Source: a bacterium | Lineage (GTDB): Bacteria; ARS69 | NCBI GenBank assembly: GCA_025774865.1 | Contig: JALGZO010000236.1 | Location: 1 to 10,703 of the forward strand | Length of the DNA stretch: 10,703 nucleotides | Direction: 5' to 3' | Shown here: piece by piece, positions 330-10,703 of the stretch | How positions within the stretch are numbered: position 1 is the first letter of the stretch | Layout of the letters: every line of letters starts with the position of its first letter | Translations under genes and position numbers: made by a program | The notes under the pieces: generated by a model | What the model saw: only the letters and a program-made list of their open reading frames with translations | Database searches by the model: none | Told to the model about the DNA's origin: nothing

Positions 330-1523
330 ATGGCCAGCCGCGCGGCCGAGAAACGCTGGCTGAGGATCGCCGAGGGGATCCTTTCACGCCCGACCGCCAC
401 ATGCCTGGAGCAAATGCCGGCCGCGTATGTGCGGTCGTTTGTCGCCCGCCGGGCGGGTCTGCGCATCGAAGCGGATCGCTACGGGAACCTCCTCGTGAAG
501 TGGCCCGGTCGCGGCAAGCCGAAAGCGCCCCCGCTGGTCCTCATGGCCCACCTCGATCACCCCGGGTTCGTCGTGAAAGAAGTCGCGAACGGGATCGTGC
601 AGCTGGAGTTCCGCGGCGGAGTTCGCTTGAAGCATGCGAAGCGCGGAACGCCGCTGGAGTTCTTTCGAACAGGCTCGGCGAAGCCGACCGGGCGGGGAAA
701 GCTGGTGTCCGCTTCCTCGGAAGGCGCGCGGCGCGCGGGCATGCTCGGGTCTGGCACCGCGCGCGTGACATCGGGGCGCGCCGTCGCCGGGGGGTTCACG
801 ATGTGGGCGTTCCCCGCCTGGTCCGTGCGAGGGGGCAAGATCGTCTCGCGGTGCCTCGACGATCTCCTCGGAGCGGCCGCGGCGCTCGCCACGCTCGATG
901 AAGTGCATCGCGCTCGTCCGCGCGGCTCGCATGTCTGGGGCTTCTTCACGCGCGCGGAGGAGGTCGGCTTGCTCGGCGCGATCGGCGGTATCCGGGCCGG
1001 CACGATCCCGCGGAACGCCCGCGTGCTCTCTCTCGAAACGTCGCGGGCCCTGCCGCACGCGGCGCAGGGCGACGGGGTGATCGTCCGCGTGGGCGACGCG
1101 CGCTCGCTGTTCGAGCCGCGCCTGACCGGTGTGTTGCACGACCTGGCGGCCGAGCTCGCCGCGGAAGACCCGAGCTTCCGCTACCAGCGTCGTCTCATGG
1201 ATGGCGGGTATTGCGAAGCCACTCCCTTCTGTGCGGCCGGCTACCGATCGAGCGGCGTGGCACTCCCGCTCGGGAACTATCACAACATGAAGGGTCTGGA
1301 CGGTGGACCGGTGGGCATCGGCCCCGAGCACATTCGGGTGTCCGACTATCTCTCGGAGGTCGAGCTGCTCGTCCGCCTGGCCGAACGCTCCGCGCGCCTG
1401 CCGGAGCTGGAGAAGCGTACGGAGGCCTGGATGGAGTCTCTCTCGCGGACCGCCCACGAGATGCTGACCGCGAACCCGCTCGGGGCGGGGGGCCGGCGCG
1501 TGCGGCGTGGGAGGTCGCGATGA
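330..1523 (+). CDS. M42-like zinc metallo-aminopeptidase
   Basis: This 397-residue protein looks like the M42 (glutamyl aminopeptidase/TET) branch of the di-zinc exopeptidases, cytoplasmic enzymes that trim N-terminal residues from peptides. The ligand motifs appear in family order: H74 and D76 in AHLDHPGF, D177 in RCLDDLLG (bridging Asp), E210-E211 in AEEVGLLGA (catalytic Glu then ligand), E236 in LSLETS and H318 in GNYHNMKG. GGYCEATPF (292-300) matches the conserved substrate-side loop. Two departures are visible: His77 stands where M42 enzymes usually have Glu, and E236 stands where an Asp ligand is common. The length is a little above the usual ~350, mostly through an Arg-rich tail after residue 355. 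There is no signal peptide. The start is supported by the AGGAG at 318-322. The stop overlaps the next start as ATGA. An M28 or M20 relative is possible. Peptide specificity cannot be read from sequence. Confidence 0.85.
   Translation: MASRAAEKRWLRIAEGILSRPTATCLEQMPAAYVRSFVARRAGLRIEADRYGNLLVKWPGRGKPKAPPLVLMAHLDHPGFVVKEVANGIVQLEFRGGVRLKHAKRGTPLEFFRTGSAKPTGRGKLVSASSEGARRAGMLGSGTARVTSGRAVAGGFTMWAFPAWSVRGGKIVSRCLDDLLGAAAALATLDEVHRARPRGSHVWGFFTRAEEVGLLGAIGGIRAGTIPRNARVLSLETSRALPHAAQGDGVIVRVGDARSLFEPRLTGVLHDLAAELAAEDPSFRYQRRLMDGGYCEATPFCAAGYRSSGVALPLGNYHNMKGLDGGPVGIGPEHIRVSDYLSEVELLVRLAERSARLPELEKRTEAWMESLSRTAHEMLTANPLGAGGRRVRRGRSR
1509..1514 (+). promoter_or_regulatory. Ribosome binding site setting the start of the receiver/PEP-binding protein
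   Basis: GGGAGG lies 5 bases before the ATG at 1520. That ATG overlaps the TGA of the peptidase (1521-1523) as ATGA. The same frame is open back to 1211, but that upstream part lies entirely over the peptidase gene, has Arg/Pro-rich shadow composition and lacks any family match, so 1520 is chosen. Confidence 0.65.
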
Positions 1524-4501
1524 CCCATCCGATTCTCGACCGTCTACTCAGGTCCGAGGAGCAGCAGGCGGTCGAATTCGACTCCCTGCGACCCTTCCAC
1601 GTGCGGGACATCCTGCTCGTCGCGAGTCTCTACGACTCCTTCACGCTGGCCGAGGACGGCCGGCTCGCAGAGCAAATCTTCGGAGAGTTCCACGCCCTCT
1701 CGTTGTCGGCGCCCGCGTACTTGACACGAGTCTCCACGGCCGAAAAGGCGTTGAAGCTGCTCCACGAACGCCACTTCGACCTCGTCATCACGATGGCCCG
1801 CATCGGTGACCTCTCGGTCCAGGAGTTCGGTGAGAAAGCGAAGGAGGTTCGCCCCGAGATCCCCATCTACCTGATGACTTACGACACGCGAGAGCTCGGA
1901 GGACTCGAGGGTGGCAGCAGCCCGCTGCGCGGTATCGACAAGGTCTTCGTCTGGCGGGGCGACGTGCGTCTGTTCCTCGCGGTGATCAAGCTCGTCGAGG
2001 ACCACCTCAATGCCGCGCATGATACGGAAGTCGGTCAGGTCAGGGTGATCACTCTCGTCGAAGACAGCATCCCATTCTACTCGTCGTACCTGCCCATGCT
2101 CTTCGACGCGATCATGAAACAGACGGCGTCGCTCATGCAGGAGGGTGTCAACACGACGCAGAAGCTTCTCCGGATGCGGGCCCGCCCCAAAATCCTCCTC
2201 GCCACCTGCTACGAAGAAGCCTGGGATCTCTACGAGAAGTACGGAGAGGTCATGCTCGGGATGATCTCGGACGTGCGCTTTCCGCGGAAGGGGCGCGTCG
2301 AGCCCGAGGCGGGACTCGAGCTGATTCAGAGCATCCGCGCCGAGAAGCCGTACCTCCCGATGGTGCTGCAATCGTCGGATCGCTCGTTCGCCAGTCGAGC
2401 CGAGGACATCGGGGCGACCTTCCTCTGGAAGAAGTCACGCACTCTCCTCCAGGAATTCCGGCAGTTCATGTTGGACAACCTCGGATTCGGGGAGTTCGTC
2501 TTCCGACGACCGAACGGTGACGAGGTCGGGCGGGCTTCCGACCTCCTCGAAATGGTCAGCGTGCTCGAAACGGTGCCGGAGGACTCTATCGAGTTTCACG
2601 GCCGCCTCAACCATTTCTCCAACTGGCTGATGGCGCGGACCGAGTTCAGCGTCGCCTCGGCGCTGAGGGGGCGGCGGGTCACGGATTTCGAATCGGTGGG
2701 GGAGATGCGCGATTTCCTCCGCCGGACTCTTCTCCACCACCGGCAACGCAGCCGTCGCGGCCTGGTGCAAGACTTCGACGCCGCCCGTTTCGACGCGAGC
2801 TCCGAGTTCGTGCGGATCGGGGGCGGCTCGCTCGGCGGGAAAGGAAGAGGGCTCGCGTTCATCCACGAGCTCCTGAATCGGCACGATGTCGAGAATCACT
2901 TCCCGGGCCTCCGGATCTACGTGCCGCCGTCCGCCGTGCTCGGCACGGAGGTATTCGACCGTTTCCTCGAGTGGAACAAGCTGCACGAGTTCGCGCTGCG
3001 CGAGACGAGCGACCAGGAGATCACGCGTCGCTTCCTCACGTGCCGCATGCCCCGGGACGTCGTAGCCGATCTCGCCGCGTTCCTCGACAACATCCGATAC
3101 CCGCTCGCCGTCCGGTCGTCGAGCCTGCTCGAGGACTCGCACTACCAACCCTTCGCGGGGGTCTACTCCACGCAGATGTTGCCGAATGCCGACACCGATC
3201 GGGAGGTTCGGCTTCAGGAGCTCCTCGACGCCGTGAAGTTCATCTATGCCTCCACGTTCTTCCGTGCCGCGAAGGCCTACGTGGATATGACGCCGAATCG
3301 CATAGAAGAAGAGAAGATGGCGGTAGTCATCCAGGAGATCGTGGGTGGCCGTTCGGGGAACTACGTCTATCCCCACGCGAGCGGAGCGGCGAGCTCATAC
3401 AACTACTATCCGGTGGGCGCGATGAAGCCGGAAGAGGGCATCGCGAGCGTCGCACTCGGACTCGGCAAGCAGGTCGTCGAGGGCGGGCGCGTCGTCCGTT
3501 TCTCTCCGGCCCACCCACAATCGCTGCCTCAGTTCTCGCGACCGGACGATGTCCTGGAGAACGCCCAACGACATTTCTGGGCGCTCGATCTAACACGACC
3601 GCTCGATTTCCTCAAGCCCGACTCCAACCTCACGCGGCTCGACCTCGCGCAGGCCGAGAGGCACGGGAAGCTGTGGTCCGTCGCGTCGACTTACTCGGCC
3701 GAGGACGATGCCGTCTACGACGGGATCTCGCGCCCCGGCGTGCGCCTCGTGACGTTCGCACCTCTGCTCAAGAACCAGATTCTCCCGTTCAACGAGGTGG
3801 TCCAGCTGCTCTTGCAGGTCGGACAACGCGGCCTGTCCGGGCCGGCCGAGATCGAGTTCGCGCTCAATCTGGAGCCGGGCCAGGATCCTCCCAACGAGTT
3901 CGCGTTTCTCCAGATTCGCCCCATGCCGATCGTCGACTCCGGCGAGACGAGGCTCGACGGCATCGAGGCCGATCGCGTCTTCGTCCGGTCGAGCCAGGCT
4001 CTGGGAAACGGCCGAAGTTCCGAGATTCGTGACATCGTGTCGGTGCGAATGGACGTCTTCCGGCGTGAGTGCACGCCCGAAATCGCAGCGGACGTGGGGA
4101 AGATGAACGCGGAGCTGACGGCCGCCGGCCGCCCGTACCTCCTGCTCGGGCCCGGGCGCTGGGGCACGGCTGATCGCTGGCTCGGGATCCCGGTCACGTG
4201 GTCCCAGATTTCGGGGGCGCGCGCGATTCTCGAGGCCGACCTGACGGATCTCGCGGTCGAGCCTTCGCAGGGAACGCACTTCTTCCAGAACATGACGAGC
4301 TACGGAATCGGCTACTTCAACGTTCACGTTCGTACGGGCGGCCACGTGGACCAGGAGTGGCTCGCCGGCATTCCCGTCGCGAAAGAGACGCCCTGGCTCC
4401 GGCACGTGCGTCTCGACGAGCCTCTCGAAGTGCTGATCGACGGGAGGCGCGGAGAGGGCCTGATTCTCAAGAAGGTCCGGGAGCCCGTCGAGGCCGTGTG
4501 A
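1520..4501 (+). CDS. Receiver-receiver-PEP/pyruvate-binding (PpsA-type ATP-grasp) fusion protein
   Basis: This 993-residue soluble protein has three parts. Residues ~28-163 form a receiver-like domain with no phosphoacceptor: Met92 sits at the Asp position and Arg146 at the conserved Lys. Residues ~174-320 form a second receiver that keeps the key residues (E181-D182, D251 in ISDVRFP, S285, K304) with extra helical sequence before its second strand. Residues ~432-803 match the nucleotide-binding domain of PEP synthase and pyruvate phosphate dikinase: GGSLGGKGRGL (K441), AVRSSSLLED (R532), EIEF (E779) and FLQIRP (Q798, R800). The usual phospho-His swivel motif and PEP-binding barrel are absent. 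The last ~190 residues contain LLGPGRWGT and a GTHFFQN motif (918-924) instead. Proteins annotated as PEP/pyruvate-binding with a receiver occur in Bacteroidetes-like genomes, with role unknown to me. It ends one base before thrA, so it is probably co-translated. Complete PEP synthase activity is unlikely. Confidence 0.85.
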   Translation: MTHPILDRLLRSEEQQAVEFDSLRPFHVRDILLVASLYDSFTLAEDGRLAEQIFGEFHALSLSAPAYLTRVSTAEKALKLLHERHFDLVITMARIGDLSVQEFGEKAKEVRPEIPIYLMTYDTRELGGLEGGSSPLRGIDKVFVWRGDVRLFLAVIKLVEDHLNAAHDTEVGQVRVITLVEDSIPFYSSYLPMLFDAIMKQTASLMQEGVNTTQKLLRMRARPKILLATCYEEAWDLYEKYGEVMLGMISDVRFPRKGRVEPEAGLELIQSIRAEKPYLPMVLQSSDRSFASRAEDIGATFLWKKSRTLLQEFRQFMLDNLGFGEFVFRRPNGDEVGRASDLLEMVSVLETVPEDSIEFHGRLNHFSNWLMARTEFSVASALRGRRVTDFESVGEMRDFLRRTLLHHRQRSRRGLVQDFDAARFDASSEFVRIGGGSLGGKGRGLAFIHELLNRHDVENHFPGLRIYVPPSAVLGTEVFDRFLEWNKLHEFALRETSDQEITRRFLTCRMPRDVVADLAAFLDNIRYPLAVRSSSLLEDSHYQPFAGVYSTQMLPNADTDREVRLQELLDAVKFIYASTFFRAAKAYVDMTPNRIEEEKMAVVIQEIVGGRSGNYVYPHASGAASSYNYYPVGAMKPEEGIASVALGLGKQVVEGGRVVRFSPAHPQSLPQFSRPDDVLENAQRHFWALDLTRPLDFLKPDSNLTRLDLAQAERHGKLWSVASTYSAEDDAVYDGISRPGVRLVTFAPLLKNQILPFNEVVQLLLQVGQRGLSGPAEIEFALNLEPGQDPPNEFAFLQIRPMPIVDSGETRLDGIEADRVFVRSSQALGNGRSSEIRDIVSVRMDVFRRECTPEIAADVGKMNAELTAAGRPYLLLGPGRWGTADRWLGIPVTWSQISGARAILEADLTDLAVEPSQGTHFFQNMTSYGIGYFNVHVRTGGHVDQEWLAGIPVAKETPWLRHVRLDEPLEVLIDGRRGEGLILKKVREPVEAV

Positions 4502-4502
4502 C

Positions 4503-6959
4503 GTGAGGATTCTCAAGTTCGGTGGCTCGTCGTTAGCCAAGCCCGATCGAGTGGAGCGCGTTTGCGGGATCGTGCGGCGGTCGCGCGACGAGGGGCCGAT
4601 CGCGGTCGTCGTGTCCGCGTTCGGAGGCGTCACCGATTCGCTGATCGCGGCCGCCCACGCGGCGGCTCGTCGCGACGGGACGAGCGGCTCGCGCATAGAC
4701 GGCCTCGAGAAGCGGCACCAGGTCGCCGCCGAGTCGCTGGCCTCCGAGGTCGAGCTCGAGGAGCTGCTCGAGCGGATCACCACTGTCTTCCGTCACGTCC
4801 GCGAGCTCGTGCACGGCGCGTCCATCCTCCGGGAGACGAGCGATCGCACGCTGGACGCGGTGGCGAGCGTCGGGGAAACGCTATCCGCCGCGATCGTCGC
4901 CGCCGCCCTCCGTCGGCGTGGAGTCGAGGCGGAGGACTGCGACGCCCGCCGCCTCATCGTGACGGAGCCCCGGGTCGATGGCGCCCGAGTGAAGGAAGTC
5001 GAGACCCGCGAGCGAATCCGGCGGCACTTCGCGGAACCGGGACGTCTCCAGGTCGTGACCGGCTTCATCGCGAGCACGGAGGACGAGGAGACCACGACGC
5101 TGGGGCGCGGCGGCTCGGACTACACGGCCTCGATCCTGGGGTCGGCGCTCCGGGCCGAGGCGGTCGAGCTCTGGACCGACGTAGACGGTGTTCTGAGCGC
5201 GGACCCCAGCATCGTTCAAGACGCCGTTCCCAATGAGCGCCTGAGCTACGACGAGCTCATGGAGCTCGCGCACTTCGGAGCCAAGGTCGTTCACCCACCG
5301 AGCGTCCACCCGGCGCGCCGTGAGTCGATCCCGCTCTGGATCAAGAACACGTTCCGGCCGGACTGGGCGGGGACGTTCGTGACGGACGTCCCGACCGCAT
5401 CGGCGTCCCCCGTGCGCGGCGTCGCGTCGATCGGGCGGGTCACGCTGCTGCGGTTGGAAGGCGACGGCATGATTGGGGTGTCGGGCATCGCGATGCGGCT
5501 CTTCGGCGCGCTCGCGCGGGAGGGAGTCAGCGTCATCATGATCAGCCAGGCGTCGAGCGAACACTCGATCTGCTTCGTCGTCTCCCCGACGGACGCAGAG
5601 GTCGCGGCGAGAAGTATCGCCGAGGAGTTCGCGGTGGAGCGCCGCGCGGGGCTCATCGACGATCTCGTGATCGAAGAGCGCCAGTCGGTAGTGGCCGCCA
5701 TCGGCGCCGGCATGCGGGAGAGGTGCGGAGTCGCGGCCCGTCTCTTCGGGGTGCTCGGCCGCCACGGGATCAACGTGCGCGCGATCGCACAGGGATCGTC
5801 GGAGCTCAACATCTCGCTCGTCGTGGACGCGGACGACGAAGTCAAAGCGGTCAATGCGATCCACGACGCGTTCTTCGTCCCCGGCTGGAGCCGAGTGGAG
5901 ATCGCACTCGCCGGGATCGGTGGAGTCGGAGGAGCCCTGCTCGAGCAATTCGCCGAGCGGGCTGCCGCTCTCGAACGGGAGCGCGGGCTTCGCCTCCACC
6001 TCGTCGCGGTGGCCGACTCGCGGGGAGCGGTGCTCAATCCGGCGGGGATCGATCCGGCCAGCGCGGTTCAGCGGCTGCGGAGCACGGAGGACCGCGAGGC
6101 GCTCGATACGATGATCGAGTACCTGGAGTGCGACCGCGGCTCGGCGCGCGTTCTCGTGGACTGCACCGCGAGCGAGACGGTGCCGGCGAAGTACGGTCCG
6201 GCTCTGCGGTCGGGGGCTGCCGTCGTCACGGCGAACAAGCTTCCGTTCGCCGGACCCCTCGACGAGTGGCATGCGCTCCGGGATGCGGGGCCGGGGCGTC
6301 TCTATCACGAGACCACCGTCGGGGCGGCGCTGCCCGTGATTCGCACGCTCCAAGAGCTCATCGCGACCGGGGATCGCGTGCGGCGGATCGAGGGCGTGCT
6401 GTCCGGGACGCTGGGCTTTCTCCTCGACCAGGTGACCGCCGGTCGCGCGTTCAGCGAAGCACTGCGCATCGCGCACGAGCGTGGCTACACCGAGCCCGAC
6501 CCGCGCGAGGATCTCGGCGGGCGCGACGTGGCTCGCAAGCTCCTCACGCTCGCTCGCCTCCTCGGCCGCGAGCTGTCGCCGGAGGATGTCGACGTGATGC
6601 CGTTGCTGCCGGACGAGTCGTGGGGTGCCTTGTTGCTGGACGAATTCTGGGCTCGGGTGCCGGAGGCGGACGAGACCATGGTCCGGCTGCGCGATTCTGC
6701 TGCCGCCGCCGGCAAACGGCTGGTGTACCTCGCGCAGCTGGGGGAGGGCGAAGCCCGCGTAGGTCTGGAAATGGTGGACCGCGAGCGCGCTTGTGCGCGG
6801 GTGCGCGGATCGGACAACCTGGTCGCTTTTACGACCGACCGCTACCACGAGACCCCGCTCGTCGTGCAGGGGCCCGGCGCAGGCCCGGGCTTGACCGCAT
6901 CCGGGGTCTTCGCCGACCTTCTTCGCGCCATCGATGAGGCAGAAGGAGGCGGAGCTTGA
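4503..6959 (+). CDS. thrA: Bifunctional aspartokinase / homoserine dehydrogenase
   Basis: This enzyme catalyses the first and third steps from aspartate to threonine. The 818 residues match the ~820 of E. coli ThrA and the domain order is the same. The aspartokinase spans 1-~295: KFGGSS at 5-10, SAFGGVTD at 38-45, TTLGRGGSDYTA at 198-209, WTDVDGV at 224-230. Two ACT repeats cover ~315-455, with QASSEHSI at 349-356 and QGSSELNI at 430-437, typical of allosteric threonine control. Homoserine dehydrogenase spans ~465-818: nucleotide-binding GIGGVGG at 471-477, TANK with K579, GVLSGTLGF at 631-639, and GGRDVARK with D675 and K679, where the two lysines correspond to catalytic residues. The GTG start lies one base after the previous stop, with only a weak GAGG about 10 bases upstream, so translation probably depends on coupling. 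Its stop overlaps asd. The fused form and residue conservation make this call very secure. Confidence 0.97.
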   Translation: MRILKFGGSSLAKPDRVERVCGIVRRSRDEGPIAVVVSAFGGVTDSLIAAAHAAARRDGTSGSRIDGLEKRHQVAAESLASEVELEELLERITTVFRHVRELVHGASILRETSDRTLDAVASVGETLSAAIVAAALRRRGVEAEDCDARRLIVTEPRVDGARVKEVETRERIRRHFAEPGRLQVVTGFIASTEDEETTTLGRGGSDYTASILGSALRAEAVELWTDVDGVLSADPSIVQDAVPNERLSYDELMELAHFGAKVVHPPSVHPARRESIPLWIKNTFRPDWAGTFVTDVPTASASPVRGVASIGRVTLLRLEGDGMIGVSGIAMRLFGALAREGVSVIMISQASSEHSICFVVSPTDAEVAARSIAEEFAVERRAGLIDDLVIEERQSVVAAIGAGMRERCGVAARLFGVLGRHGINVRAIAQGSSELNISLVVDADDEVKAVNAIHDAFFVPGWSRVEIALAGIGGVGGALLEQFAERAAALERERGLRLHLVAVADSRGAVLNPAGIDPASAVQRLRSTEDREALDTMIEYLECDRGSARVLVDCTASETVPAKYGPALRSGAAVVTANKLPFAGPLDEWHALRDAGPGRLYHETTVGAALPVIRTLQELIATGDRVRRIEGVLSGTLGFLLDQVTAGRAFSEALRIAHERGYTEPDPREDLGGRDVARKLLTLARLLGRELSPEDVDVMPLLPDESWGALLLDEFWARVPEADETMVRLRDSAAAAGKRLVYLAQLGEGEARVGLEMVDRERACARVRGSDNLVAFTTDRYHETPLVVQGPGAGPGLTASGVFADLLRAIDEAEGGGA
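6943..6949 (+). promoter_or_regulatory. Strong ribosome binding site that fixes the asd start
   Basis: AAGGAGG lies 9 bases before ATG 6959. It decides between that ATG and a TTG one codon upstream at 6956. The site lies inside the last codons of thrA and is the best Shine-Dalgarno match in the run. Confidence 0.75.
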
Positions 6960-8029
6960 TGAAGATCCCCGTTGCAGTGCTCGGGGCCACCGGGAGCGTC
7001 GGGCAGCGGTTCGTCGGGTTGCTCGCCGCGCATCCTTGGTTCGAGATTCGTCGGCTCGTCGCGTCGGAGCGGTCGGTGGGCAAGCCCTACGCGGAGGCGG
7101 TGGACTGGATGCAGTCCACGCCGTTGCCGCCGAGTGTCGCTGAGATCAAGCTCGCCCGGGCGACGCCGGAGGAGGCCGATGGTTGTCCGCTCGTCTTCTC
7201 GTCGCTCGACGCCGGGGTCGCGGGAGCCGCGGAGTCGGCGTTCGCGCGCGCCGGAGCCGTCGTCGTGTCGAACGCGAAGAGCCACCGCATGAGTCGGAAC
7301 GTGCCGCTTCTCGTGCCCGAAGTGAACGCGGACCATCTCGAGCTCGCCGAACGCCAGGATCACCCGGGAATGATCCTCACGAACCCGAACTGCTCTACGA
7401 TCGGTCTCGTCCTCGCTCTCAAGCCGCTCGTGGATGCGTTCGGGGTCGAGGCGGTGAGCGTAGTCACGATGCAGGCGCTCTCCGGGGCCGGATTACCCGG
7501 CGTGCCGGGAATGCGCGCCGTCGACAACGTCGTGCCGTTCATCGCGGGCGAAGAGGAGAAGATCGAGAGCGAGAGCTCGAAGATTCTCGGCCGCTTCCGC
7601 CGTGACCGCATCGAACCGGCGGACGTGAGCGTGAGCGCGCACTGCAATCGAGTGGCGGTGATCGACGGTCACACGCAATGTGTGTCCGTCAAGATGAGGC
7701 GCCCGGCGCGGGCCGAAGACGTCCGCAAGGCCTGGATCGAGTTCACGGGAGAGCCGCAGGAGCTCGGTCTACCGTCGGCCCCGGTACCACCGATCCACTG
7801 GCTTCCCGAAGCTGACGCACCGCAGCCGCGTCTCCACCGAAACCTGGGCGCCGGCATGGCGATCTCGGTGGGACGGCTGCGCTCGTGTCCTCTACTCGAC
7901 TATCGGTTCGTGACCCTCTCGCACAACACGGTGCGCGGTGCGGCGGGGGGCGCGCTCCTCGTCGCCGAGCTCGCCGTCGAGAAGGGCTGTCTCACCGAGC
8001 GCTCCGCCGGGACCCGTTCCCGTGGATGA
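6959..8029 (+). CDS. asd: Aspartate-semialdehyde dehydrogenase, archaeal/fungal-like type
   Basis: This enzyme reduces aspartyl-4-phosphate with NADPH to aspartate semialdehyde, the second step of the pathway. The product has 356 residues. The N-terminus shows the NADP-binding GATGSVGQRF (9-18). The catalytic cysteine is C145 in NPNCSTIG. HCNRVAVIDGHTQ (228-240) contains the conserved C-terminal substrate-binding region and a probable general-base His238. GATGSVGQRF, NPNCSTIGLVLALKPL and CNRV-DGHT resemble the ~350-residue branch found in archaea, fungi and some bacteria, rather than the E. coli or Gram-positive forms. The start ATG at 6959 overlaps the thrA stop by one base, and the AAGGAGG above supports it. 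The C-terminus overlaps the start of thrB by 8 bases. The function is secure; the subfamily assignment is from memory of motifs. Confidence 0.95.
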   Translation: MKIPVAVLGATGSVGQRFVGLLAAHPWFEIRRLVASERSVGKPYAEAVDWMQSTPLPPSVAEIKLARATPEEADGCPLVFSSLDAGVAGAAESAFARAGAVVVSNAKSHRMSRNVPLLVPEVNADHLELAERQDHPGMILTNPNCSTIGLVLALKPLVDAFGVEAVSVVTMQALSGAGLPGVPGMRAVDNVVPFIAGEEEKIESESSKILGRFRRDRIEPADVSVSAHCNRVAVIDGHTQCVSVKMRRPARAEDVRKAWIEFTGEPQELGLPSAPVPPIHWLPEADAPQPRLHRNLGAGMAISVGRLRSCPLLDYRFVTLSHNTVRGAAGGALLVAELAVEKGCLTERSAGTRSRG

Positions 8030-8975
8030 CCGCATCTGGGCCTGGGCACCCGCCACGGTGGCCAACGTCGGACCCGGCTTCGACGTGTTCGGTTTCGCCA
8101 TCGAGGGAGCCGGTGACCGGGTCGCGGCCCGGCGCCGCGACGAGCCGGGGGTAGTGCTCGTGGGCGTCGAAGGCGACGAGGGGCGCCTCCCCCGCGACGC
8201 GGAAAGCAACACGGCCGGGGTGGCGGCGCGGGCGCTGCTCGAAGCGGTGGGCGAGACGGAATTCGGTATCGAGCTCTCGCTCGAGAAGGAGACACCCCTG
8301 GCGTCGGGGCTCGGTTCGAGCGCGGCGAGCGCGGTGGCGGCCGTGACCGCGGTGAACGAGCTACTGTCCTCGCCGGCGAGCCTGCCGGTGCTGCTGCAGT
8401 GCGCGACCGAGGCGGAACGGGCCGCTTGCGGTTTCGCTCCCGCCGACAATACCGCTCCTTCGCTTCTGGGCGGGTTCGTCCTCGTGAGAGGCGGCACCCC
8501 TCCTCGCGTCGCCCAGCTCCCCGTTCCGGAAGGCCTCTCGTGTGCGCTCCTCCACCCGCACCAGCAAGTGCGGACCGAGGAAGCGCGAGCGGTCCTGCCC
8601 GAAAGCGTTCCCCTCGCGACGGCAGTGGAGCAGTGGGGGAACGTCGCGGCCTTCGTTGCGGGCCTCGTGCAGGGAGAATTGGACCTGCTGCGGAGCTCGA
8701 TCCACGACGCGATCGCTGAGCCGGTTCGGAAGGCGAACGTGAAGGGTTTCGAAGAGGTGAGTCGGGCGGCCCTGGACGCCGGGGCGCTCGGCTGCGGCCT
8801 GTCGGGCTCGGGACCGTCGATCTTCGCCCTCTGCCACTCGCCCGCCCGGGCGGAAGAGGTCGTGCGGGCCATGTCGATCGCTCTCGAGAAAGCGACCGAC
8901 GATCGAGGCGACATTCTCGTGTCGCCCGTCGGTGTCGCCGGGGCCCGAATCACCACCGAGGGATCGAGCGTATGA
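8022..8975 (+). CDS. thrB: Homoserine kinase, GHMP family
   Basis: This enzyme phosphorylates homoserine with ATP to give O-phosphohomoserine. The chosen GTG start gives 317 residues, close to the usual ~310. The protein then opens directly into the family's APATVANVGPGFDVFGFA substrate-side segment (9-26). The ATP-binding GHMP motif is at 91-101 (TPLASGLGSSA), and the C-terminal glycine-rich motif is SGSGPSIFAL at 261-270. The frame is open further upstream, but that part has Arg/Ser/Pro-rich shadow composition over asd and no family similarity. The upstream Shine-Dalgarno is weak, so the 8-base overlap with asd probably gives translational coupling. It ends in an ATGA overlap with thrC. Confidence 0.95.
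   Translation: MDDRIWAWAPATVANVGPGFDVFGFAIEGAGDRVAARRRDEPGVVLVGVEGDEGRLPRDAESNTAGVAARALLEAVGETEFGIELSLEKETPLASGLGSSAASAVAAVTAVNELLSSPASLPVLLQCATEAERAACGFAPADNTAPSLLGGFVLVRGGTPPRVAQLPVPEGLSCALLHPHQQVRTEEARAVLPESVPLATAVEQWGNVAAFVAGLVQGELDLLRSSIHDAIAEPVRKANVKGFEEVSRAALDAGALGCGLSGSGPSIFALCHSPARAEEVVRAMSIALEKATDDRGDILVSPVGVAGARITTEGSSV
8958..8963 (+). promoter_or_regulatory. Ribosome binding site of thrC
   Basis: GAGGGA lies 8 bases before ATG 8972, inside the last codons of thrB, supporting that start. Confidence 0.5.
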
Positions 8976-10270
8976 AGTTCGTCAGCACTCGCGGGGCGGG
9001 CTCTTCGGCGGATCTGCGAACGGCCGTCCTCGGCGGTCTGGCCCCGGACGGCGGCCTCTATTTGCCCGAACAGGTGCCGCTGCTGCCGGAGTCGTTCTTC
9101 GCGCGCCCGGGGGGAGCGTCACTCGGAGAAACGGCGGTCGCGGTGCTGCACCCGTATCTCGAAGAGCTCGCCGAGCCGGACCTGAAAGGTCTCGTGAACG
9201 ACGTGTTCTCCTTCGACATCCCGCTCGTTCGGCTCGGAAGCGACGTCCGGGTCCTCGAGCTCTTTCACGGTCCGACGCTCGCGTTCAAGGACGTCGGCGC
9301 GCGCTTTCTCGCGAGGCTCGTGAGTCGGTGCCTGCGCGATGCGGACGACAGGTCGACCGTTCTCGTCGCGACCTCCGGGGATACCGGGAGCGCCGTCGCC
9401 CGAGCGTTCCTGGGTGTGCCCCGCACCCGAGTGGTCGTGCTCTATCCCGAGGGCCAGGTCAGCCCGGTGCAGCAGAAGCAGTTCACGACGCTCGGCGACA
9501 ACGTGCGGGCGCTCGCGGTGGCAGGCACGTTCGACGATTGCCAACGCCTCGTGAAGGAGGCGTTCGCGGACGACGAGCTTCGCCGTACCGTGCGGCCGAT
9601 CTCCGCGAACTCGATCAACATCGGGCGGCTCCTGCCGCAGATCGTGTACTACTTCCACGCGGTCGCGCAGCTTCCGGCGGGTGAGCCGCCGGTCCTGTTC
9701 GCGACGCCGAGTGGCAACTTCGGAAACTTGTGCGCGGGGCTCATCGCGAAGCGCATGGGCCTCCCGGTCTCGGGCTTCGTCGCCGCGACGAACGTGAACG
9801 ATGTCGTGCCCGTGTATCTCGAAACCGGCGAGTTCCGGCCGCGCTCGTCGCGGCGCACCATCTCCAGCGCGATGGATGTCGGTGACCCGAGCAATTTCGA
9901 CCGGATTCGATTCCTCTACGGAGACGACCGAACAGCGATCCGGCGCGACCTCACCGGCCGCCGGTACGATGACGACGAGACCCGCACCGCGATCCGCGAG
10001 GTACGGTCCCGCTACGGCTACACGCTCGATCCTCATACGGCGGTCGGCTATCTCGGCCTGCGGGCGGTCATGGAGACGCACGGGGACGTGACCGGCGTCG
10101 TGCTCGCCACCGCCCACCCGGCGAAGTTCCGAGACGAAGTGGAGCCGGAGATCGGGGAGTCGGTCGAGCTCCCGGCCCGGCTGGCGGAATGCCTGGAGCG
10201 GGAAGACCGCTCCACGCGGATGGCGCCCGAGCTCGCGGCGCTCCGGATCGTGCTGACCGAGACGGCGTAG
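8972..10270 (+). CDS. thrC: Threonine synthase, PLP-dependent
   Basis: This enzyme converts O-phosphohomoserine and water to threonine and phosphate, the last step of the pathway. The 432 residues match the E. coli-type enzyme (~428). The N-terminal STRGAGSSADLRTAVLGGLA followed by DGGLYLP is typical of the family. The PLP lysine is K106 in HGPTLAFKDVGARF. ATSGDTGSA (133-141) and PSGNFGNL (246-253) bind substrate and the cofactor phosphate. NSINIGRLLPQ (213-223) and DPHTAVGY (353-360) are further family signatures. Translation probably couples to thrB through the ATGA overlap. It is the last gene of the run. A hairpin lies 11 bp after its TAG stop. Confidence 0.96.
   Translation: MKFVSTRGAGSSADLRTAVLGGLAPDGGLYLPEQVPLLPESFFARPGGASLGETAVAVLHPYLEELAEPDLKGLVNDVFSFDIPLVRLGSDVRVLELFHGPTLAFKDVGARFLARLVSRCLRDADDRSTVLVATSGDTGSAVARAFLGVPRTRVVVLYPEGQVSPVQQKQFTTLGDNVRALAVAGTFDDCQRLVKEAFADDELRRTVRPISANSINIGRLLPQIVYYFHAVAQLPAGEPPVLFATPSGNFGNLCAGLIAKRMGLPVSGFVAATNVNDVVPVYLETGEFRPRSSRRTISSAMDVGDPSNFDRIRFLYGDDRTAIRRDLTGRRYDDDETRTAIREVRSRYGYTLDPHTAVGYLGLRAVMETHGDVTGVVLATAHPAKFRDEVEPEIGESVELPARLAECLEREDRSTRMAPELAALRIVLTETA

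Positions 10271-10330: not shown

Positions 10331-10703
<373 letters not shown>

Follow-up and report, generated by a model that had tools for sequence, protein, structure and literature searches.

A gene for a receiver-receiver-PPDK-like protein (RR-PPDK), located in the stretch of 10,703 nucleotides analysed here (the window), shows a strong and old linkage to the gene for glutamate dehydrogenase (GDH), a link which is apparently unreported. Because the gene usually lies beside the GDH gene, its product may well be a dedicated controller of this enzyme. We propose that RR-PPDK is a dedicated, receiver-gated phosphotransferase which would control GDH via a phosphohistidine at H920, and we assign this reading a probability of about 0.45.

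Gene organization in the window

The RR-PPDK gene (1520-4501, plus strand) is complete and forms an uninterrupted reading frame of 993 amino acids with no internal stops. The frame proposed in the initial annotation is therefore real, and it is matched by orthologs and by the best 80 of at least 583 relatives. On the upstream side an M42-type peptidase gene (330-1523, plus strand) overlaps the RR-PPDK gene at the start/stop sequence ATGA. An HD-domain fragment and this peptidase gene (together 2-1523) are kept with the RR-PPDK gene in all five genomes of its own family. At the other end one base separates the RR-PPDK stop codon from the GTG of a bifunctional aspartokinase/homoserine dehydrogenase, which belongs to a threonine operon (AK-HSD, asd, thrB, thrC; 4503-10270, plus strand). 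The 3' end of a convergent GDH gene follows (10331-10702, minus strand; PF00208, 157 bits) and is cut by the end of the contig. This gdhA fragment carries the C-terminus MMDQGLV, which is typical of linked GDHs. A role of RR-PPDK in anti-phage defence was rejected, as a PADLOC search gave no match.

Distribution of the family

Each of the other four genomes of the small phylum carries an ortholog with 69-70% identity, and a scan of GTDB species yielded at least 583 confirmed relatives. The best 80 of these align over nearly their whole length with 41-53% identity. They represent about a dozen phyla, with bins labelled Eisenbacteria, Krumholzibacteria, Zixibacteria, Ignavibacteria, Bacteroidales, Acidobacteria, Gemmatimonadetes, Desulfobacterales, Calditrichaceae, Planctomycetes and others, and a few archaeal bins. 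Common to these 80 proteins is one architecture, consisting of a pseudo-receiver, an intact receiver, a DUF5752-like linker, a PPDK-type ATP-grasp domain and a C-terminal domain. The shared architecture and its conservation across these relatives identify an ancient conserved combination and not an oddity of one genome; the family is old, widespread in bacteria and uncharacterized. Among unselected genomes, a match was present in 20 of 148 from the G005 phylum (Bacteroidota, broadly defined), in 39 of 119 from the G006 phylum (Acidobacteriota; one had partial copies) and in 4 of 118 from the G008 phylum (Desulfobacterota); the phylum of each group was deduced from the named locus around which it was centred.

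Several variants were seen in addition. A second RR-PPDK copy in an Ignavibacteria genome (G005:C31:102108-104995) is in two pieces and is possibly a pseudogene or an assembly error. The genome of the window itself encodes a paralog of 1083 amino acids (L003/L093 on G000:C379; L003 886-4137, minus strand), in which PPDK_N and the same GRWG/GTHFFQ domain are accompanied by a C-terminal NTP_transf_2 nucleotidyltransferase and by an N-terminal part with no Pfam match that is GAF-like by eye. This paralog looks like a second regulatory variant of the family. At L008 (G003:C160, 1-3974) a Glu/Leu/Phe/Val dehydrogenase-like gene, a short protein with PPDK_N and the C-terminal domain, and the N-terminal part of an L003-like PPDK_N paralog stand in tandem. 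Eight loci from Bacteroidales/Chlorobiota bins (L036, L068, L069, L071, L077, L078, L083, L088) have a gene of ~1150-1270 amino acids directly upstream of RR-PPDK. The one scanned, in L068, encodes a paralog with receiver, DUF5752 and PPDK_N, so that a two-paralog operon results, and GDH is the next gene in some such loci. A 1059-aa NuoF/GltD-like flavoprotein fusion was found at most 10 kb from RR-PPDK in eight loci (L030:6642-9818 and seven others).

Linkage of RR-PPDK with glutamate dehydrogenase

The initial annotation had implied a link to the thr genes and had missed GDH. The thr genes adjoin RR-PPDK in three of the five genomes of its own family (the window genome, G002 and G003) and in none of the loci of the best 80 of at least 583 relatives. 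This association is lineage-specific and was rejected as local. Of the two remaining family genomes, G001 has GDH about 140 bp from RR-PPDK, tail to tail and with no thr genes between, and G004 has it at a distance of 3.8 kb.

Clustering of the genes neighbouring the relatives' loci gave one dominant cluster, GDH (PF00208/PF02812). It lies within 1 kb of RR-PPDK in 46 of the 80 loci (best 80 of at least 583), often on both sides, and in L021 and L024 GDH and RR-PPDK genes alternate in a cluster. For an unselected test we took all full-length RR-PPDK genes of the sampled genomes from the Bacteroidota and Acidobacteriota groups (n = 64) and looked for PF00208 in those genomes. A GDH domain was located at a distance of at most 1.5 kb from 52 of the 64 genes; it was on the same strand in 50 cases and directly upstream on the same strand in 49. 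With 2.2-2.4 GDH-family genes per genome, chance would place a given gene this close in about 0.4% of cases. About one in five RR-PPDK genes is not near GDH. Short paralogs, which consist of the ATP-grasp and C-terminal domains and have no receivers, also adjoin GDH (7 of 11 within 1.5 kb, as well as L002 and L008), and their neighbours are other GDH subfamilies.

The GDH sequences were compared in a tree of 82 proteins. The linked GDHs are clustered, with 14 changes versus a mean of 27.4 after shuffling, and none of 500 shuffles gave a value as low. One clade of 32 rows comprises 26 linked GDHs, five from genomes bearing the gene and one from a genome without an RR-PPDK gene. Of 43 linked GDHs, 39 carry an Asp close to the C-terminus (Asp449; MLDQGxV), versus 1 of 29 GDHs from genomes without RR-PPDK. 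L088 has both forms, a linked GDH with Asp and an unlinked GDH with Ala. This contrast recurs between the pair L078/L088 and L114/L115; exceptions are L025, L045, L067, L144 and L153. The association, which is confounded by ancestry, hints that the Asp may be a contact or target site. Two GDHs, one with the linked signature (L153, G379) and one within the linked clade (L147, G346), come from genomes in which RR-PPDK was not found.

Receiver domains and linker

Both receivers of RR-PPDK are weak by Pfam sequence match and clear by fold (27-162 and 174-324, Z 13-15). Receiver 1 (residues 27-165; 1598-2014, plus strand) matches the fold of PorX receivers with Z about 14 and is degenerate, as the phospho-acceptor Asp and the Lys are both missing from the 81-row alignment. 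Receiver 2 (residues 174-325; 2039-2494, plus strand; Z 13-15), in contrast, has the full response-regulator set of acidic pair, phospho-Asp, Thr/Ser and Lys (E181/D182, D251, S285, K304). D251 and K304 are conserved in 81 of 81 rows and E181 in 80 of 81. The receiver with D251 ahead of the ATP-grasp domain which the initial annotation had described as phosphorylatable is thus present, with D251 (codon 2270-2272, plus strand) as the predicted phosphorylation site. Its receiver-receiver label applies to the two folds, but only the second of them is phosphorylatable. Clustering of the neighbouring genes in the relatives' loci revealed no recurrent cognate histidine kinase gene. Between receivers and ATP-grasp domain lies a DUF5752-like linker (residues about 335-412; 2522-2755, plus strand). 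The equivalent segment of relatives matches PF19027 with up to 30.1 bits (cut-off 23), and a search of the window protein itself with this model gave no match.

Receivers naturally take phosphate from phospho-His. An internal phosphorelay could therefore be imagined, in which the phosphate would pass from the ATP-grasp domain to H920 and on to D251 of the same protein and the receiver would report the adenylate energy status to a downstream partner; H920 and D251 are both invariant. Because the short paralogs keep the ATP-grasp and putative His domains and have no receivers, the receiver cannot be the sole acceptor, and we regard such a relay as quite improbable.

ATP-grasp domain and C-terminal domain

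The PPDK_N ATP-grasp nucleotide-binding domain (residues 428-802; 2801-3925, plus strand) was recognized by Pfam with 110.6 bits (residues 437-802, E 1.2e-31) and by its structural similarity to the ATP-binding domain of rifampin phosphotransferase (RPH; 5hv6, Z 23.7). K441, R532, E777, E779, Q798 and R800 are invariant in 81 of 81 rows, and all but E777 had already been pointed out in the initial annotation.

The segment behind it (residues 803-986; 3926-4477, plus strand) carries the motifs GRWG(T/S) and PSQG(T/S)HFFQN. In the window protein GRWGT (residues 879-883) and GTHFFQN (918-924) were located as previously described. Invariant residues of this part in the 81-row alignment are G879, R880, G882, L888, G889, E905, H920, F921, F922 and N924, and H920 (codon 4277-4279, plus strand) is invariant in 83 of 83 proteins, paralogs included. 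Profile methods did not detect a His domain here. Pfam gave no match to residues 803-993 of the window protein and recognized none of the C-terminal domains of 83 members as a swivel His domain; PF00391 was silent at this position in every genome searched. A sequence profile search of the PDB with the C-terminal domain produced only chance matches to longin-domain proteins, hhalign against the canonical swivel domains of the same genomes gave a probability of 0.5%, and Foldseek with the isolated domain found nothing below E 0.06, which is not significant. The hhalign and Foldseek values, together with GRWG and HFFQN motifs that are unlike SHAAIVAR, would suit an unrelated ligand-binding or GDH-docking domain, with the ATP-grasp domain acting in another way, for example in ligation.

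Structure prediction, however, indicates a hidden swivel fold. The AlphaFold model, calculated on 81 sequences, has a pLDDT of 87 for the whole protein and of 91 for the C-terminal domain alone. VIA-align of the whole model placed residues 418-986 on residues 4-467 of the Neisseria PEP synthase (2ols; Z 26.6, 363 residues, 4.3 Å) and residues 428-986 on residues 7-511 of PPDK (1dik; Z 19.3, 349 residues, 5.0 Å), and both superpositions cover the ATP-grasp and His domains of these enzymes as a single unit. With the isolated domain the top match was maize PPDK 377-511 (Z 6.9, 120 residues, 3.7 Å), followed by the extra C-terminal domain of the Bacillus pyruvate kinase 2e28 (6.7) and the phosphoryl-carrier domain of PPDK 2fm4 (6.7); RPH 756-867 (Z 6.3) and Enzyme I (5.3-5.6) ranked lower, with unrelated folds intermixed further down. 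VIA only re-aligns Foldseek candidates, so this ranking is limited to those, and Z values of 6-7 are modest.

In the model a strand (900-906) precedes H920, which is the first residue of helix 920-927, and the next strand follows at 931-935; this we take to be the position of the catalytic His in PPDK. The spacing from the ATP-grasp Arg to H920 is about 120-121 residues (121 in 71 of the best 80 of at least 583 relatives), and true PPDKs of the same genomes have 122-123. The domain closes with a DGxxxxG-like motif similar to DGxTGEV, with which the PPDK domain ends, and the last positions paired in the structural alignment (986 to 511 in 1dik) fit this register. We judge it likely that the C-terminal domain is a cryptic swivel phosphohistidine-type domain, a rating held at this level because the VIA scores are modest and Foldseek alone was not significant. 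Topology and spacing suggest H920 as its catalytic (phospho-)His. With the whole-model superposition on PEP synthase and PPDK running through the His domain, with phosphohistidine domains ranking first in VIA and with matching spacing, an unrelated domain is an unlikely alternative.

No Pfam model of a PEP/pyruvate-binding barrel matched the protein, which ends 7 residues past the swivel-like domain. Of the canonical pair of swivel His domain and barrel, the analysis thus recovered a predicted swivel-like fold and no barrel, and the barrel is probably the only module of PEP synthase/PPDK which is missing from RR-PPDK. The initial annotation was right about the barrel; its second statement, that the phospho-His or swivel domain is missing too, is probably wrong in view of the predicted fold, the VIA ranking, the invariant H920 and the Arg-His spacing. 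Its suggestion that the protein is not gluconeogenic but a regulated ATP-dependent transferase agrees with an intact ATP-grasp domain, one intact receiver and the absent barrel.

The absence of the PEP domain would also suit an ATP/AMP (energy-charge) sensor which regulates GDH by contact and without phosphoryl transfer, H920 and the swivel domain serving for conformational sensing. A precedent for regulation of glutamate metabolism through direct binding is the GarA type in Actinobacteria (PMC5448819, PMC12321487). However, the catalytic ATP-grasp residues and H920 are invariant in 81-83 proteins, which goes beyond the need of a binding-only role, and we consider pure contact sensing rather improbable.

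Comparison with known systems

RR-PPDK resembles PPDK/PpsA in its ATP-grasp domain, which carries the residues K, R, E, Q and R, and in the predicted swivel-type domain right behind it, at the same spacing. It differs from these enzymes by the absence of the PEP/pyruvate TIM barrel, by the unrecognizable sequence of the predicted His domain, by the two receivers and DUF5752-like linker that precede the ATP-grasp domain and by its linkage to GDH. Identity with PEP synthase or PPDK was rejected on account of the missing barrel, and conversion of pyruvate to PEP is not expected. RPH is the best structural match and likewise combines an ATP-grasp and a His domain without a PEP barrel, but its rifampin-binding domain lies between the two, whereas in RR-PPDK the predicted His domain follows directly. 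With only about 120 residues between the ATP-grasp Arg and H920 there is no middle domain, and identity with RPH was rejected as well; the RPH model NF041857 scored 25.9 bits against a cut-off of 999. The top NCBIfam similarity, over the ATP-grasp part, is to the prodigiosin ligases PigC and RedH (46-54 bits, cut-offs 1300/1350), which unlike RR-PPDK are secondary-metabolite ligases and have no receivers. To judge by such near-matches, many RR-PPDK genes probably carry a wrong annotation as PEP synthase or pyruvate phosphate dikinase.

As the nearest relatives in structure and sequence are RPH, PEP synthase, PigC and RedH, and as genes of one operon often share a pathway, RR-PPDK could be a metabolic enzyme of the GDH pathway. 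Phospho-H920 would then phosphorylate or activate a small molecule (e.g. a glutamate- or 2-oxoglutarate-related acid) under regulation by the receivers, and GDH would be a neighbour and not the target. This seems doubtful, since the third, substrate-binding domain of the RPH/PEPS type is absent, the two receivers and the nucleotidyltransferase-bearing paralog look regulatory, and a separate copy accompanies each of several GDH subfamilies.

Two further systems can be compared with RR-PPDK and its proposed control of GDH. In Actinobacteria, GarA/OdhI together with PknG controls glutamate metabolism at the protein level in response to nutrients (PMC5448819). The analogy is one of function only, GarA being an FHA protein that works with a Ser/Thr kinase, and the folds are unrelated. 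In the DVU0246/Dde_0604 region of Desulfovibrio an uncharacterized PPDK-like protein is encoded beside an NtrX-type response regulator gene (PMC4001038). Unlike RR-PPDK, the Desulfovibrio protein is annotated with a recognizable PEP-utilizing mobile domain, has the receiver on a separate protein and stands in a different context. Beyond this PPDK with a mobile domain, the open-access literature yielded nothing relevant on the motif, the architecture or GDH-linked PPDK-like proteins.

Proposed role of RR-PPDK

Linkage, architecture and conservation are what the analysis shows; the mechanism proposed on this basis would have GDH as its target. ATP would occupy the PPDK-type ATP-grasp site, as the invariant residues and the fold suggest. 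The swivel domain would present H920, which by analogy with the PEP synthase/PPDK family would take the beta-phosphate, with conversion of ATP to AMP. As there is no PEP/pyruvate barrel, phospho-H920 would donate elsewhere, most likely to GDH or to a GDH-bound effector, and GDH activity would change with the energy charge; this outcome, to which the linkage alone points, is the least certain step. Receiver 2 might gate the cycle through D251 in response to a sensor kinase, and receiver 1 may act as a pseudo-receiver for dimerization or docking.

GDH is a main gate between carbon and nitrogen metabolism. To our knowledge no dedicated protein-level regulator of GDH is known for most bacteria, GarA in Actinobacteria being the known case. 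In a somewhat more tentative generalization of the RR-PPDK proposal, GDH would be controlled in many phyla by a dedicated phosphohistidine machine, in which the ATP-grasp/swivel unit is derived from PEP synthase, the barrel is replaced by interaction with GDH, a receiver gates the activity and separate controllers serve the individual GDH isoenzymes. It would do for GDH what GlnE does for glutamine synthetase or AceK for isocitrate dehydrogenase. The conserved partner that accompanies GDH in Bacteroidota, Ignavibacteria, Acidobacteria, Desulfobacterales and other groups is a directly testable regulator candidate. It also suggests that a PPDK/PEPS module can shed the PEP barrel, that the His domain of such a module can become invisible to profiles, and that the module can come under two-component control.
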